IMG/VR virus record: IMGVR_UViG_3300008261_000153
Coordinates: 1 to 27,667 of that record
From: a virus
Length of the DNA stretch: 27,667 nucleotides
Reading direction: 5' to 3' (one strand)
The notes under the pieces are model-generated. The model saw only the letters and a list, made by a program, of their open reading frames with translations, was not told the DNA's origin and made no database searches. Position numbers and translations under genes: made by a program. How positions within the stretch are numbered: position 1 is the stretch's first letter; each line of letters begins with the position of its first letter. Shown here piece by piece: positions 18,796 to 27,667 of the stretch.

Positions 18796-19965
18796 TTACG
18801 GAGTCCGCTTTGATCCGCGCGCCTTTGCTGCTCGCCCCAGTTGCGTGTTCACGCTTGAGGTGGCGTCGCGTCCTAGCGTGATCGAGTTATTCACCTGCAG
18901 ATACGAAGAGCCGCCTCCTCCTCCGCCGCCTCCGCCCCTCATCGGCGTTCCTGTCGCTCGTGAGCCTCCGCTGTAGCCTGCGCCGGCAGCAGCCCTGTCA
19001 AGTTTCTGCAACTTGGGTCCGCCTCCGATTCCGATGAACTTCAGCCCAGCAACGATGGCGTCAATCACAATCTTGATTGCCTGCAAAGCAAGCTTCAGGG
19101 GAGTCAGCGCAATGGTCAAGACGTTGATTGAGTCGTCACCAGTATCAAAGATGGCAAAGAGTTCGCTGAAGGAATCAAAGAGTGGTCGGACATAGTTGTC
19201 CAAGATGTCGGTGAAGATAGGTCCGAGGTCTTCCATCAGCTGCTCAAAGGCAGGCAGAGCCGTCTCGGTCAAGAAGGCAAGGGCCTCATTGACCACTGGC
19301 AGCAACTTGTAGCCGAAGTTCTCAATCGCCTCGTTGAAGCGAATCTGCGCTGCGGCGAACTTGCCACTCGTGCTGTTGGCGACTTCCTCAGCCACGCCGA
19401 GATACTTCTCGTCAGCGGCCCGCAGGATGTCCTTGAGCTTGGCGCCTTTCTCAACCTGGATGCCGAGCTGCATCAACCCGCGCGTGCTTCCCAGCGCGCC
19501 TCGTCCGATGGCGAGCATCACGGTGCTAAGGTCCTTGCCGGTTGCTGCGGCAATGTTTGCAGCGACGGCGTTTGCCCTGAGCAGATTCTCCTGGTTCTTG
19601 AAGAATCGGCTTCCGATTTCTAGTCCATCTCGCACCTGGTCGTCCGTGAAGCCGAGGCGAGCCATCGCCTTGATCTGCTCCTCAATCTTTGGCGAGAGTT
19701 GATCCATCTGATAGCCGCGCGCTTGAAGTGCTGCGGTGAGCCTGATCGTCTGCTTCTCATCGTCTGCCGCAGCCTTGACTGCGCTGGCTGCGAAGGCTAC
19801 CAGTGCTGCACCGGCTGCCAGCGCAGCTGCGCCGATTGCCCTGAATGCTGTGCCAGCGACTCCTTGAAGTCGGCCCATCGCCTTGCCGATGTTGCCCATC
19901 GGCTTAGTCGCGGCGTCCTTTGCCGCGATGACGAAGTTCGCTGAACGGTCAGACCCGAATGCCAT
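18796..19965 (-). CDS. Tape measure protein (short, 389 aa)
   Basis: This is a largely helical protein with an alanine-rich hydrophobic stretch at about residues 40-70 (GTAFRAIGAAALAAGAALVA, then FAASAVKAAADDEKQ). It continues with helices such as ARLGFTDDQVRDGLEIGSRF and a C-terminal region ending in MRGGGGGGGGGSSYLQ. It lies between the chaperone/gp10 genes and the hub protein, the canonical tape measure position. At the usual ratio of about 0.15 nm per residue, its length would give a tail of roughly 60 nm, short for a siphovirus. The N-terminus SANFVIAAKDAATKPMGNI matches phage tape measures. The poly-Gly linker near the C-terminus is unusual. Confidence 0.85.
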   Translation of the reverse strand: MAFGSDRSANFVIAAKDAATKPMGNIGKAMGRLQGVAGTAFRAIGAAALAAGAALVAFAASAVKAAADDEKQTIRLTAALQARGYQMDQLSPKIEEQIKAMARLGFTDDQVRDGLEIGSRFFKNQENLLRANAVAANIAAATGKDLSTVMLAIGRGALGSTRGLMQLGIQVEKGAKLKDILRAADEKYLGVAEEVANSTSGKFAAAQIRFNEAIENFGYKLLPVVNEALAFLTETALPAFEQLMEDLGPIFTDILDNYVRPLFDSFSELFAIFDTGDDSINVLTIALTPLKLALQAIKIVIDAIVAGLKFIGIGGGPKLQKLDRAAAGAGYSGGSRATGTPMRGGGGGGGGGSSYLQVNNSITLGRDATSSVNTQLGRAAKARGSKRTP

Positions 19966-19968
19966 TGC

Positions 19969-20496
19969 TCACCTTCTCTTGAACCGCAGGATGGTCCTAC
20001 GGAATGCGTCGTTGTTGAAGAATGATTCTACCGTCTTCGCCATCGCTTCCATCGCGGTCTTCTGGTGCGCTTCGTTCTTGGAGACGCGCGTGACGAATGG
20101 GTTGGCTGGAACTGCCTTGACTGCCTTCGCTCCGTTCTTGGTCTGGCGCACGCCGCTGATCCCAGAGGTCACGAACCAGCGATACCACGCTCCACCACTA
20201 CCACCGTCTCGGCTTCGTCCAGCCCTCGGACCGACCACCGCAGCCGGTGTGCCGAAGCGCGCGCGGCGTGCCGTGACCGACTTGCGGAGTCTGCCTGGCG
20301 ACTTCGTGGTCTTGCCGACTGGAGCCTCGGCTCGCATTGGCTTGACCATCGTGCGCGCAGCGTTCAGCGTGGCGATGCTCAGGAGGCGCTTGTAGGCGCC
20401 AGGGTTCGCCCCTTCGAGGAAGCCGAGCTGCAACGCCTTGTAGTTCGAGTCCACGTTGAAGGAGATTGTCAGTCGGTCAAGCGAGTTAGCGGCCAC
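19969..20496 (-). CDS. HK97 gp10-like tail completion protein
   Basis: This is a 175-residue basic protein that starts MAANSLDRLTISFNVDSNYK and contains LNAARTMVKPMRAEAPVGKTTKSPG (residues about 43-68) and VVGPRAGRSRDGG, then AWYRWFVTSG (near 105-115) and VPANPFVTRV (near 130-139). The segment AAPVxT-G-L---V and the later WFxExGT-like and ANPF motifs are those of HK97 gp10-family proteins. GTG at 20496 overlaps the frameshifted chaperone by 11 nt. In most siphophages this gene precedes the major tail protein; here it follows the chaperones and precedes the tape measure. Confidence 0.75.
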   Translation of the reverse strand: MAANSLDRLTISFNVDSNYKALQLGFLEGANPGAYKRLLSIATLNAARTMVKPMRAEAPVGKTTKSPGRLRKSVTARRARFGTPAAVVGPRAGRSRDGGSGGAWYRWFVTSGISGVRQTKNGAKAVKAVPANPFVTRVSKNEAHQKTAMEAMAKTVESFFNNDAFRRTILRFKRR

Positions 20497-20707
20497 TGTT
20501 CTCCTTTGGCTGAAGGTCGGACATTAGCGCCAGTGTACGAGTGAAGTCTCCTGCGTCCCACTCCAGAACCTCGTGCGGTGGGATGTGGAACTTCTCACCG
20601 ATCAGGTGCGCTGCGATGAGTGGATGCGGCGAGAGAGTCCGACCCGCCGCCAGCCGCTGGGCGTCGAGCCTTATCGAGGGGGGAGTGCTGCTACCGCGTC
20701 GCTCCAC
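20486..20707 (-). CDS. Tail assembly chaperone, frameshift (GT-type) extension
   Basis: This -1 frame is reached from the G-type gene at the CCCCCCT site (20683-20677). After the slip it continues SIRLDAQRLAAGRTLSPHPL and ends GDFTRTLALMSDLQPKENSGR. The open frame extends upstream to 20707, but a free-standing start there would be out of place. The fusion would be about 158 residues (20961 to 20486). The C-terminal extension recruits tail tube subunits to the tape measure in known phages. Acidic/aromatic residues (LEWDAGDF) are typical. Confidence 0.8.
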   Translation of the reverse strand: MERRGSSTPPSIRLDAQRLAAGRTLSPHPLIAAHLIGEKFHIPPHEVLEWDAGDFTRTLALMSDLQPKENSGR

Positions 20708-20961
20708 TTCGTGATCGCGTCGCTGAGTGCGTCCATTGGTGCGTCAAGCACGTCTGCCGCTGGTGCGCCATCGTCTGTCAGGAAGTTGTGCGTGATCACG
20801 AGCTTCTGCAGTGCGTTCAGTGCGCGCTCGGCGCTGCCGCTTTGCAACTCAATGAAGACGCGAGCAGGAACGCCCTCTGCCTTCATCGTGGCTGTCCAGC
20901 CGTCAAACGGCGCGGACAGGGTGATCTCAACGGTGCGGAACTGTGGCTTACTCTGGCTCAT
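20671..20961 (-). CDS. Tail assembly chaperone (gpG-like)
   Basis: This is a 96-residue protein, MSQSKPQFRTVEITLSAPFD at the start, then GWTATMKAEGVPARVFIEL and a helical, acidic C-terminus ending ITKWSDAVAALPPR. Size, position between the major tail protein and the tape measure, and the slippery site just before the stop identify the G-type chaperone. GGAGGAGG lies 6 nt before the ATG. The short and long forms are made from one start; the ratio of the two normally matters for tail assembly. Confidence 0.85.
   Translation of the reverse strand: MSQSKPQFRTVEITLSAPFDGWTATMKAEGVPARVFIELQSGSAERALNALQKLVITHNFLTDDGAPAADVLDAPMDALSDAITKWSDAVAALPPR
20677..20683 (-). other. -1 ribosomal frameshift site (CCCCCCT)
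   Basis: The heptamer C CCC CCT has the X XXY YYZ form, in frame with the G-type chaperone, 4 nt before its TAA (20673-20671). A slip of -1 at CCC CCT gives CCC CCC, then TCG ATA AGG, which enters the long reading frame ending at 20486. I did not assign a downstream pseudoknot. Confidence 0.82.
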
Positions 20962-20991: not shown

Positions 20992-21999
20992 TTACGGCAA
21001 CGCCGCCAAGTCGCTATTCACGACGATGCGAAGGCTCTTCGCGCTCACCGTGTCGTAGACGAGCGTTCCAGTCACGGCCATCGTGGTCAGACCATCTTCG
21101 GCGCCAGCCATCTGCTGGACTTCCGTTGGGACGATCATCGCAAGGATGTGTGCCGAGTAGGTGCCGTTGCTCCACGTCAGTCGCACGCCCTTCGGGGTCG
21201 CTGCCTTGTATGCGTCGTACCACGTTGAGACTGCGCTCGCCGTGCTGCTCACCGTCATCGTCAGCGTGCCGCTGAATGGGTTGCTCTCGGCGTGCGTGCT
21301 GAACACGGTCGTGCCTGCAAGGTACGACTGGCGCGTGATGCCTGCGTTGAACTCCAGTGAGAAGTCGAGCAGGTATTCGTATGCCGTTCCGTCAGCCGTG
21401 CCTGGGAAGGTGCTGCCGTGCTGGAAGGCGTTCCAGAGGCGTCCTGCCATAAACGGCGAGGTTGGCGTGCCTTCGGCAAGCGTCGCGCTGTTCTTGGCGA
21501 TCTGCTGCGCGAAGAGGTTAGCGCTCAGGTTCGTCAGTCCGTTGCGGTCTGCCGCAATCGTGATTGACTCAGCCAAGCAGTAGTTCGCGGCGTATGCCTG
21601 CGTGCCGTCGGTTGCGATCAACGTGTAGGAAGTCGGCGAGTTCGCCGCTGTCATCGAGTAGTCGTAGTCCCACTCGTATGGCGCAGCTGTTCCTGAAGGT
21701 GTATCGGTGCGCGTCATTGAGAGCCAGAGTGGAAGTTCGCCGACGCTCACGGCAGGGACGGTCGCGCTGAGTGTTGGCTCAACGGAGACGATCGTGCCGG
21801 TGGAGCCGATGAGCGGGTTGCGAAGTGCAACGGATCGCTCGGTTCCAAGTTCAATCGTTGTGCCTTCGGAGATGACGCCAGTTGGCGTCACGAGCAGCTT
21901 GCGGCCGCCGCTGGTCAGCGTTGGAATGGTTCCAGGCGTAGTCTCCTTGAAGGCGACCAGTTTGCTGAACAGTACGTTCCCTGCGGATGCGGCTGGCAT
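20992..21999 (-). CDS. Major tail protein (tail tube)
   Basis: This is a 335-residue beta-rich protein. It starts MPAASAGNVLFSKLVAFKET and has strands LLVTPTGVISEGTTIELGTE, then VSVEPTLSATVPAVSVGELP, then a run of Ser/Thr-rich segments ending VYDTVSAKSLRIVVNSDLAALP. Location upstream of the chaperones and length agree with a tail tube subunit. AAGGAG precedes the ATG by 8 nt, and the start overlaps the upstream stop by one base (TAATG). Confidence 0.85.
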   Translation of the reverse strand: MPAASAGNVLFSKLVAFKETTPGTIPTLTSGGRKLLVTPTGVISEGTTIELGTERSVALRNPLIGSTGTIVSVEPTLSATVPAVSVGELPLWLSMTRTDTPSGTAAPYEWDYDYSMTAANSPTSYTLIATDGTQAYAANYCLAESITIAADRNGLTNLSANLFAQQIAKNSATLAEGTPTSPFMAGRLWNAFQHGSTFPGTADGTAYEYLLDFSLEFNAGITRQSYLAGTTVFSTHAESNPFSGTLTMTVSSTASAVSTWYDAYKAATPKGVRLTWSNGTYSAHILAMIVPTEVQQMAGAEDGLTTMAVTGTLVYDTVSAKSLRIVVNSDLAALP

Positions 22000-27409: not shown

Positions 27410-27667
27410 CTACAACTCAATCCACTTGACCTCAGCCTTCGGCTTCGGCGCTGGTGCGTTGCCTAGTGTACCCGCTCGGCTGTGTGCCATCAACGCAGCG
27501 ACAAGAAGGTCGATGCGCTTCAGGCTGGTCTTGGATTCTTTCTTGACCATCAAGCCGTTGCGTGAATAGTACGGCGTGGCATTGCCTGCGTGTCGTGCCA
27601 GACTCGGATCGCCGTCGTGCTTCACTCTGCCGTTGACGACGGCATCGTAGAACGCAGCTGTGGCTGG
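27410..27667 (-). CDS. terL: Terminase large subunit, C-terminal end (partial at window edge)
   Basis: The frame is open from 27667 down to TAG at 27410. The 85 residues read AAFYDAVVNGRVKHDGDPSL, then ARHAGNATPYYSRNGLMVKK, then ESKTSLKRIDLLVAALMAHS and a basic/Pro-rich end. HDGDP, LARHxxNA and the KRIDxLVAALMA helix are the final part of the TerL nuclease domain. A GTG at 27625 falls inside this domain and is not a real start. The matching N-terminal part lies at 1-1095 on the same strand. Portal follows 8 nt downstream. Confidence 0.92.
   Translation of the reverse strand, partial: PATAAFYDAVVNGRVKHDGDPSLARHAGNATPYYSRNGLMVKKESKTSLKRIDLLVAALMAHSRAGTLGNAPAPKPKAEVKWIEL

Follow-up and report, generated by a model that had tools for sequence, protein, structure and literature searches.

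A conserved C CCC CCT heptamer and a predicted downstream pseudoknot at the joint of a putative G/GT tail-chaperone pair in an IMG/VR virus

The locus and its neighbouring genes

The window analysed here is the whole 27,667-nucleotide stretch of IMG/VR record IMGVR_UViG_3300008261_000153. The locus lies on its minus strand, with genes in the order tail tube, G/GT, a 175-residue gene and tape measure, and comprises the following features.

20992 to 21999, minus strand: tail tube protein gene (Phage_tube_2), the upstream neighbour; Pfam PF18906, E 1.5e-8, 35.1 bits with a cut-off of 27
20671 to 20961, minus strand: G-like ORF of 96 codons, its ATG behind the Shine-Dalgarno sequence GGAGGAGG and its end reading ...VAALPPR-stop
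20684 to 20694, minus strand: conserved stretch GTAGCAGCACT directly upstream of the heptamer, with conservation at synonymous sites
20677 to 20683, minus strand: putative slippery heptamer C CCC CCT
20671 to 20676, minus strand: six-base spacer CGATAA between the heptamer and the predicted structure, containing the 0-frame stop TAA (20673 to 20671)
20486 to 20677, minus strand: T-like extension of 63 codons plus stop, which would be entered by a -1 shift
20496 to 19969, minus strand: 175-residue gene between GT and the tape measure, with no significant match in Pfam or PHROGs
18796 to 19965, minus strand: short tape-measure-like protein of 389 residues, the downstream neighbour; PHROG 991 at E 1.4e-7 and PHROG 28 at E 6e-7

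The initial annotation had proposed a CCCCCCT slippery site at 20677 to 20683 joining G and GT tail chaperones. The heptamer is real: the plus strand reads AGGGGGG at these positions, the mRNA reads CTC CCC CCT CGA TAA, and on the minus strand 20683 to 20677 is C CCC CCT in the correct X XXY YYZ phase. It had been described as lying 4 nt before the stop; it is indeed near the stop, but three bases (CGA) intervene and the first base of the stop is the fourth. The -1 frame runs without a break into the long reading frame, as had been stated, being open from 20743 to 20486, and the predicted products from one start are 96 residues (G) and 158 residues (the fusion). Across the joint the fusion would read ...VAALPPSIR, with SIR supplied by the -1 frame. 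The end of the extension overlaps the GTG start (20496) of the next gene.

Ten in-phase heptamers occur in the 42 listed minus-strand ORFs of the window. Among these ten, CCCCCCT at 20683 to 20677 has the longest -1 extension (63 codons, the next being 40) and lies one codon upstream of the stop of its ORF. When the last ten codons of G were recoded synonymously with the codon usage of the window, an in-phase heptamer arose in 1.55% of 100,000 draws. Taken from one genome alone the case for the heptamer is only moderately convincing, and it is the relatives that decide.

Regarding the identity of the pair, the label of tail chaperones given in the initial annotation agrees with gene order and architecture but finds no significant family match. 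Neither G nor T has a significant family in Pfam or PHROGs, and no likeness to lambda G/T surfaced through these two collections. Profile searches of G and T in PDB gave best E values of 0.069 and 0.11, both to unrelated enzymes. The AlphaFold model of G is poor (pLDDT 49.4), while that of T consists of four helices (mean pLDDT 73.7) and had no match in a fold search of PDB. With tblastn in 50,697 phage records, no match was found for the tail tube protein (E up to 0.01) or for G (E up to 10), and T gave five weak records at E 0.3 to 8. A scan of bacterial and archaeal genomes yielded 56 candidates, none of which was confirmed as a relative. As far as these searches show, with nothing significant in Pfam, PHROGs or PDB, the protein family is new. 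Known chaperone pairs have low mutual similarity and a family match does not define them; the putative G/GT label is supported here by gene order and architecture.

It is conceivable that the heptamer slips but that the pair is not a tail chaperone of the lambda type, the fusion having some other task in the tail or in assembly. G and T lack a significant family or solved-structure match, and an extra gene separates GT from the tape measure, both of which would fit such a task. Against this, the place right after the tail tube gene, the size, and the predicted combination of a short with a long product follow the known pattern, and we regard a different task as improbable.

The 389-residue tape measure (19965 to 18796, minus strand) is short, which would suggest a short tail. 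Elsewhere in the window, the HK97-like major capsid gene (24825 to 23768, minus strand) is split by a frame change. In a comparison of 110 sequences, repeat fetches included, the capsid halves share one open frame in 107 and one frame with an early stop in 2, and the window alone has them in differing frames; the split probably reflects either an error in the sequence or a mutation private to the window. The open-ended frames at 1 to 1095 and 27410 to 27667 (minus strand) resemble, by eye, opposite ends of one large terminase gene. With terminase-like ends at both termini, the record seems to have been cut from a circular or permuted genome and to lack part of it.

Conservation of the extension, heptamer and codons among relatives

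Relatives were collected from IMG/VR in six scans, four of which gave the best 80 of 101, 127, 126 and 152 matches, respectively. The resulting 347 sequences (346 loci and the window) contained a T match in 341 and none in 6, and 7 were too short or cut. Because the same contig recurs under many loci, only distinct sequences were counted, which left 94 for counting (window included) among the matches listed. These sequences were chosen by their T match and not by the heptamer. An earlier set of 75 sequences is contained in the 94, of which 19 are new.

Both parts of the reading frame are under purifying selection, with a median omega of 0.148 for G (n=57) and of 0.171 for the extension (n=65; gap-free comparison of the first 57 codons). 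By this comparison the T-like extension evolves as protein, and it is conserved starting with its first codon. That last observation bears on the idea that the extension is a separate gene with a start of its own, for example the GTG at 20707, and that no fusion is made. This GTG opens a 73-codon ORF, and a GTG or ATG stands at its position in 65 of 75 distinct sequences. The other 10 carry no ATG, GTG or TTG upstream in the -1 frame, and nine of these have a frame that opens no earlier than 18 bases before the last base of the heptamer, so the extension cannot generally start alone. The GTG moreover falls within AAG TGG, a conserved Lys-Trp codon pair of G, no Shine-Dalgarno-like sequence was seen by eye before it, and conservation of the extension already at its first codon speaks against a separate start as well. 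We consider a separate start very improbable.

The initial annotation had named lack of conservation as the finding that would refute the site. An in-phase X XXY YYZ heptamer is present in 94 of 94 distinct sequences among the matches listed, so the site withstands this check. The types among these listed matches are CCCCCCT (79), CCCCCCG (10), CCCCCCA (4) and CCCAAAT (1). In the single CCCAAAT relative the C run is broken and a proline is replaced by asparagine, while a valid heptamer motif is retained. The 0-frame stop lies at the same distance from the heptamer in every one of the 94 (again among the matches listed). Judged by comparison of sequences, conservation of the heptamer is stronger evidence than the chance estimates given above.

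Codon choice at the joint is similarly constrained. Among 70 distinct sequences, the site has CTC in 70/70, CCC in 69/70 and CCT in 66/70, and in pairs less than 85% identical the same residue shares its codon at a frequency of 1.00 for CTC, 0.96 for CCC and 0.90 for CCT. The codon is shared in only 0.20 to 0.23 of pairs at three other invariant Leu columns. CCC is a rare proline codon, used 7 times in 183 in eleven genes of the window and 25 times in 462 in the 42 ORFs. This constraint extends upstream into GTAGCAGCACT, where the two GCA codons agree in 0.96 of same-residue pairs, compared with 0.28 to 0.43 at four invariant Ala columns elsewhere in G. A helix search over the aligned relatives found no conserved five-pair partner for the upstream GCAGCAC, and GTAGCAGCACT has no Shine-Dalgarno likeness. 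Inspection of the alignment by eye also found no conserved AGGAGG-like stretch before the heptamer, which would be an optional upstream stimulator. The stretch is possibly an exit-tunnel, E-site or other element.

The predicted pseudoknot and its alternative stem

For structure prediction we aligned 40 sequences picked for diversity out of 65 that are distinct across the stretch. The conserved block in this alignment begins about 11 bases upstream of the heptamer and ends about 37 downstream of it. RNAalifold, unprompted, placed a stem beginning exactly six bases after the heptamer. On reading the loop of this stem we found that its GCGGC (columns 57-61) is complementary to GCCGC (columns 84-88), giving a predicted H-type pseudoknot; variants with GAGGC in the loop carry GCCTC downstream. 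The predicted strands are as follows.

20661 to 20670, minus strand: stem 1, 5' strand (alignment columns 44-49 and 51-53)
20641 to 20650, minus strand: stem 1, 3' strand (columns 64-66 and 68-73)
20653 to 20657, minus strand: stem 2, 5' strand GCGGC, within the loop of stem 1 (columns 57-61)
20626 to 20630, minus strand: stem 2, 3' strand GCCGC (columns 84-88)

Among the 94 sequences from the matches listed, stem 1 is complete in 88 and stem 2 in 87, and in one relative (L187) a single pair of stem 2 is broken. Across the 40 aligned sequences, 99.8% of the 560 cells of both stems are paired. Changes on both sides of a pair occur in 4 pairs and 10 cells of the two stems, compared with 1.2 and 1.3 in shuffles, a level reached in 0 of 500; slid versions of both stems have at most one pair and at most two cells with such changes. 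The number of pair types in both stems shows no excess over shuffles (reached in 180/500). Stem 2 by itself has one covarying pair, a count matched in 159/500 shuffles, and 4 both-sided cells compared with 0.4 in shuffles, which none of them reached. When stem 2 is slid by +2 the covariation score is higher (0.093 vs 0.074), but only 42% of cells are then paired and both-sided changes are none.

Other helices were searched for as well. Within -36 to +70 in the 75 sequences, stem 1 and stem 2 supply the only five-pair helices kept in at least 90%. When the range is widened to -150 to +200 and the threshold set at 85%, further five-pair helices are conserved, and one of them, columns 6-10 with 91-95, has a covarying pair. 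A rival of stem 2, pairing columns 64-68 with 84-88, could form in 65/75, none of its pairs covarying. No match was found in Rfam at E up to 1.

The compensating changes are clearest at two pairs of columns. Among the 94 sequences of the matches listed, pair 48-69 is CG in 72, UA in 13, AU in 3 and unpaired in 6, and pair 58-87 is CG in 76, AU in 15 and unpaired in 3. Cross-tabulated over the same listed matches, 48-69 and 58-87 give CG/CG in 70, UA/AU in 13, AU/CG in 3 and CG/AU in 2, the remaining 6 being one alternative-stem group. Unpaired cases at these columns are confined to those six sequences, and no other sequence among the matches listed has a one-sided change at either pair. In the commoner type of double change, all four changed bases are synonymous in the protein (T codons 4, 8, 11 and 17). 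On a quick tree the pairs 48-69 and 58-87 change state at least 10 and at least 7 times, counts that recombination may inflate since the same block appears in separate places; the double-changed states occur in 8 and 7 of 60 distinct blocks for the respective pairs, and few lineages carry the double changes.

Folding the window alone gives a different minimum-energy fold of unremarkable stability over 77 and 56 bases (z 0.38 and 0.27); 37 bases of the window folded alone yield the stem at z -0.80. Folding of the window does not favour the pseudoknot, and the predicted structure rests on comparison. By that comparison the predicted pseudoknot is conserved with compensating changes, and the block looks like an RNA signal kept by evolution.

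The six sequences without the pseudoknot pairs (L260, L287, L290, L295, L350 and L351, among the matches listed) have an alternative predicted stem in its place. This stem begins at the first base of the pseudoknot or one base before it, for example GGCUGGAUGC with GCAUCCAGCC, and has 7 to 10 or more uninterrupted pairs, compared with 6 in the usual type, with folds at z -2.2 to -4.9. Five of the six carry CCCCCCG. Among the matches listed, 7 of the 15 sequences that lack CCCCCCT have stems of at least 8 uninterrupted pairs, compared with 1 of the 79 that carry it. Counted by rows this association has p 5e-6 with the cut-off of 8 set after seeing the data, and in a kinship-aware test it is not significant (median p 0.5); the tree shows only three stem changes. 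We tentatively suggest, as a possibility that we hold somewhat doubtful, that slippery site and stimulator evolve as matched parts in this one group of phages, with the spacing of about six bases fixed, pseudoknot and long hairpin swapped, and weaker heptamers possibly receiving longer stems. If so, the stem would compensate for CCCCCCG, CCCCCCA or CCCAAAT, as if holding a set G:GT ratio.

The fixed position of the structure also bears on transcriptional slippage, in which RNA polymerase would stutter on the C run and mRNAs of varied length would join the extension to G. Six identical bases do stand exactly at the joint, though a run of six is short for polymerase stutter. A long homopolymer run is not kept throughout the relatives, as the one with CCCAAAT has no run longer than three and still possesses a valid ribosomal heptamer, and an RNA structure conserved at a fixed distance of six bases would be needless for stutter. 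Because of this relative and this structure, we think that transcriptional slippage is very unlikely indeed. An assembly or homopolymer error that splits one long gene at the joint deserves almost no credence: the capsid gene of the same window is broken by a frame change absent from the 109 other sequences compared, but the frame change at the joint is found at the same place in 94 of 94 distinct sequences among the matches listed, where an error would be neither shared nor accompanied by synonymous conservation, so that the relatives exclude it.

Proposed frameshifting and comparison with known systems

We conclude that the locus very probably carries a -1 programmed ribosomal frameshift signal that yields two tail-assembly chaperones from one start. 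Ribosomes would translate the 96-residue G-like protein as far as C CCC CCT, where proline tRNAs would sit on CCC and CCU while the predicted H-type pseudoknot six bases on stalls a fraction of the ribosomes. Both tRNAs would then re-pair one base back in a tandem slippage, from CCC CCU to CCC CCC, and the shifted ribosomes would read 63 more codons to make the 158-residue fusion. By analogy with lambda gpG/gpGT, the tape measure protein may be coated by many copies of the short product and few of the long one, and the extension may recruit the tail tube protein. An account of lambda (PMC5009743) gives the two products at about 30:1, with G binding the tape measure and T the major tail protein; low-level shifting would suit a G/GT pair since the lambda products stand at this ratio.

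Comparison with lambda G/GT, which draws also on PMC7618472 about these tail-assembly chaperones, shows the same short ORF near tail genes with a -1 heptamer near its end, a fused longer product (predicted for the window) and a link to tape measure and tail tube, the link being one of gene order here. The heptamer is G GGA AAG in lambda and C CCC CCT here, and the window pair differs further in its predicted downstream pseudoknot and in the extra gene before the tape measure. A second comparison is offered by corynephage phi16, for which a putative frameshift in tail genes with an H-type pseudoknot is described as a one-genome prediction (PMC5506516). According to that description the predicted -1 site likewise lies in tail assembly genes together with the pseudoknot, but it is GGGGGAA with an internal Shine-Dalgarno sequence, none of which was seen in the window; the fold of the window is backed by compensating changes whereas that of phi16 is a prediction (PMC5506516).

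Among other phages, Pontimonas phage phiPsal1 (L192) is the best-ranked named match of the portal protein (39% over 86%). Its record (MG835450.1, 10817 to 11229) has an unannotated -1 site A AAA AAA at the gp16 stop, where a 55-codon -1 extension of gp16 overlaps the start of the annotated gp17 and is not annotated as joined. As in the window, the tail tube is followed by a small ORF, gp16, which has an in-phase heptamer at its stop and can be extended in the -1 frame; it differs in that the heptamer is A AAA AAA, and the site was found in the present analysis and not taken from a paper. Gp16 with its extension resembles a G/GT pair, and tblastn of the window G or T in the phiPsal1 record gave no match. 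In deep-sea thermophilic phage D6E, the T-like match (E 0.3) lies in unannotated sequence ahead of the tape measure gene. Both G-like and T-like frames are unannotated there (GU568037.1, L241, 2664 to 3117). The T-like frame of D6E is not in -1 to the preceding ORF, and the sole heptamer leading into it lies outside that ORF; since it is not in -1, the shift there could be +1 or -2. No in-phase heptamer was found in the short chaperone ORFs of the Streptomyces phages Samora and Lilbooboo (annotated as joined) and RemusLoopin (not joined).

C-run sites had been called rarer in the initial annotation than those known from lambda, which is fair, but such sites are not new: C-run heptamers are among those already assayed in E. 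coli (PMC4066793). As reported in the sections of PMC4066793 on these assays, all 64 heptamers were assayed, C_CCC_CCC was among the most efficient, and C_CC.C_CC.A and.G exceeded 0.10% without a stimulator, no value being seen there for C_CC.C_CC.U. The same sections state that CCN codons on average shift less readily than UUN and AAN codons, that an all-pyrimidine second codon marks the better-slipping heptamers, and that weak A-site pairing has been proposed as a requirement for high-level shifting; the C_CC.C_CC.N assays differ from the present case in using reporter constructs with IS stimulators (PMC4066793). The text on PRFect (PMC10885494) reports that all four nucleotides are found at X, at Y and at Z in joined SEA-PHAGES genes. 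The classical motif given there (PMC10885494) excludes C CCC CCT because it demands an A or U in the second triplet.

Our searches of the literature on CCCCCCT, C-run slippery sites and frameshifting found no tail chaperone site within the searches run. Tail heptamers are reportedly tabulated by Xu et al. 2004. Frameshifted G/GT pairs of the -1 type, C-run heptamers and a tail-gene pseudoknot are each already known as kinds; as far as the searches show, the comparative evidence for a C-run heptamer together with a pseudoknot is new and the C-run version is unusual.

The locus would represent a natural and widely shared example of a -1 frameshift at a pair of proline codons. Provided that a GGG anticodon reads both codons, the slipped tRNAs would re-pair using only C and G. 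The 94 sequences, with their compensating changes and the alternative stem, would form a panel for studying the trade-off between heptamer and structure at a fixed product ratio. Annotation of these phages with a plain gene caller would be likely to overlook the long tail chaperone.
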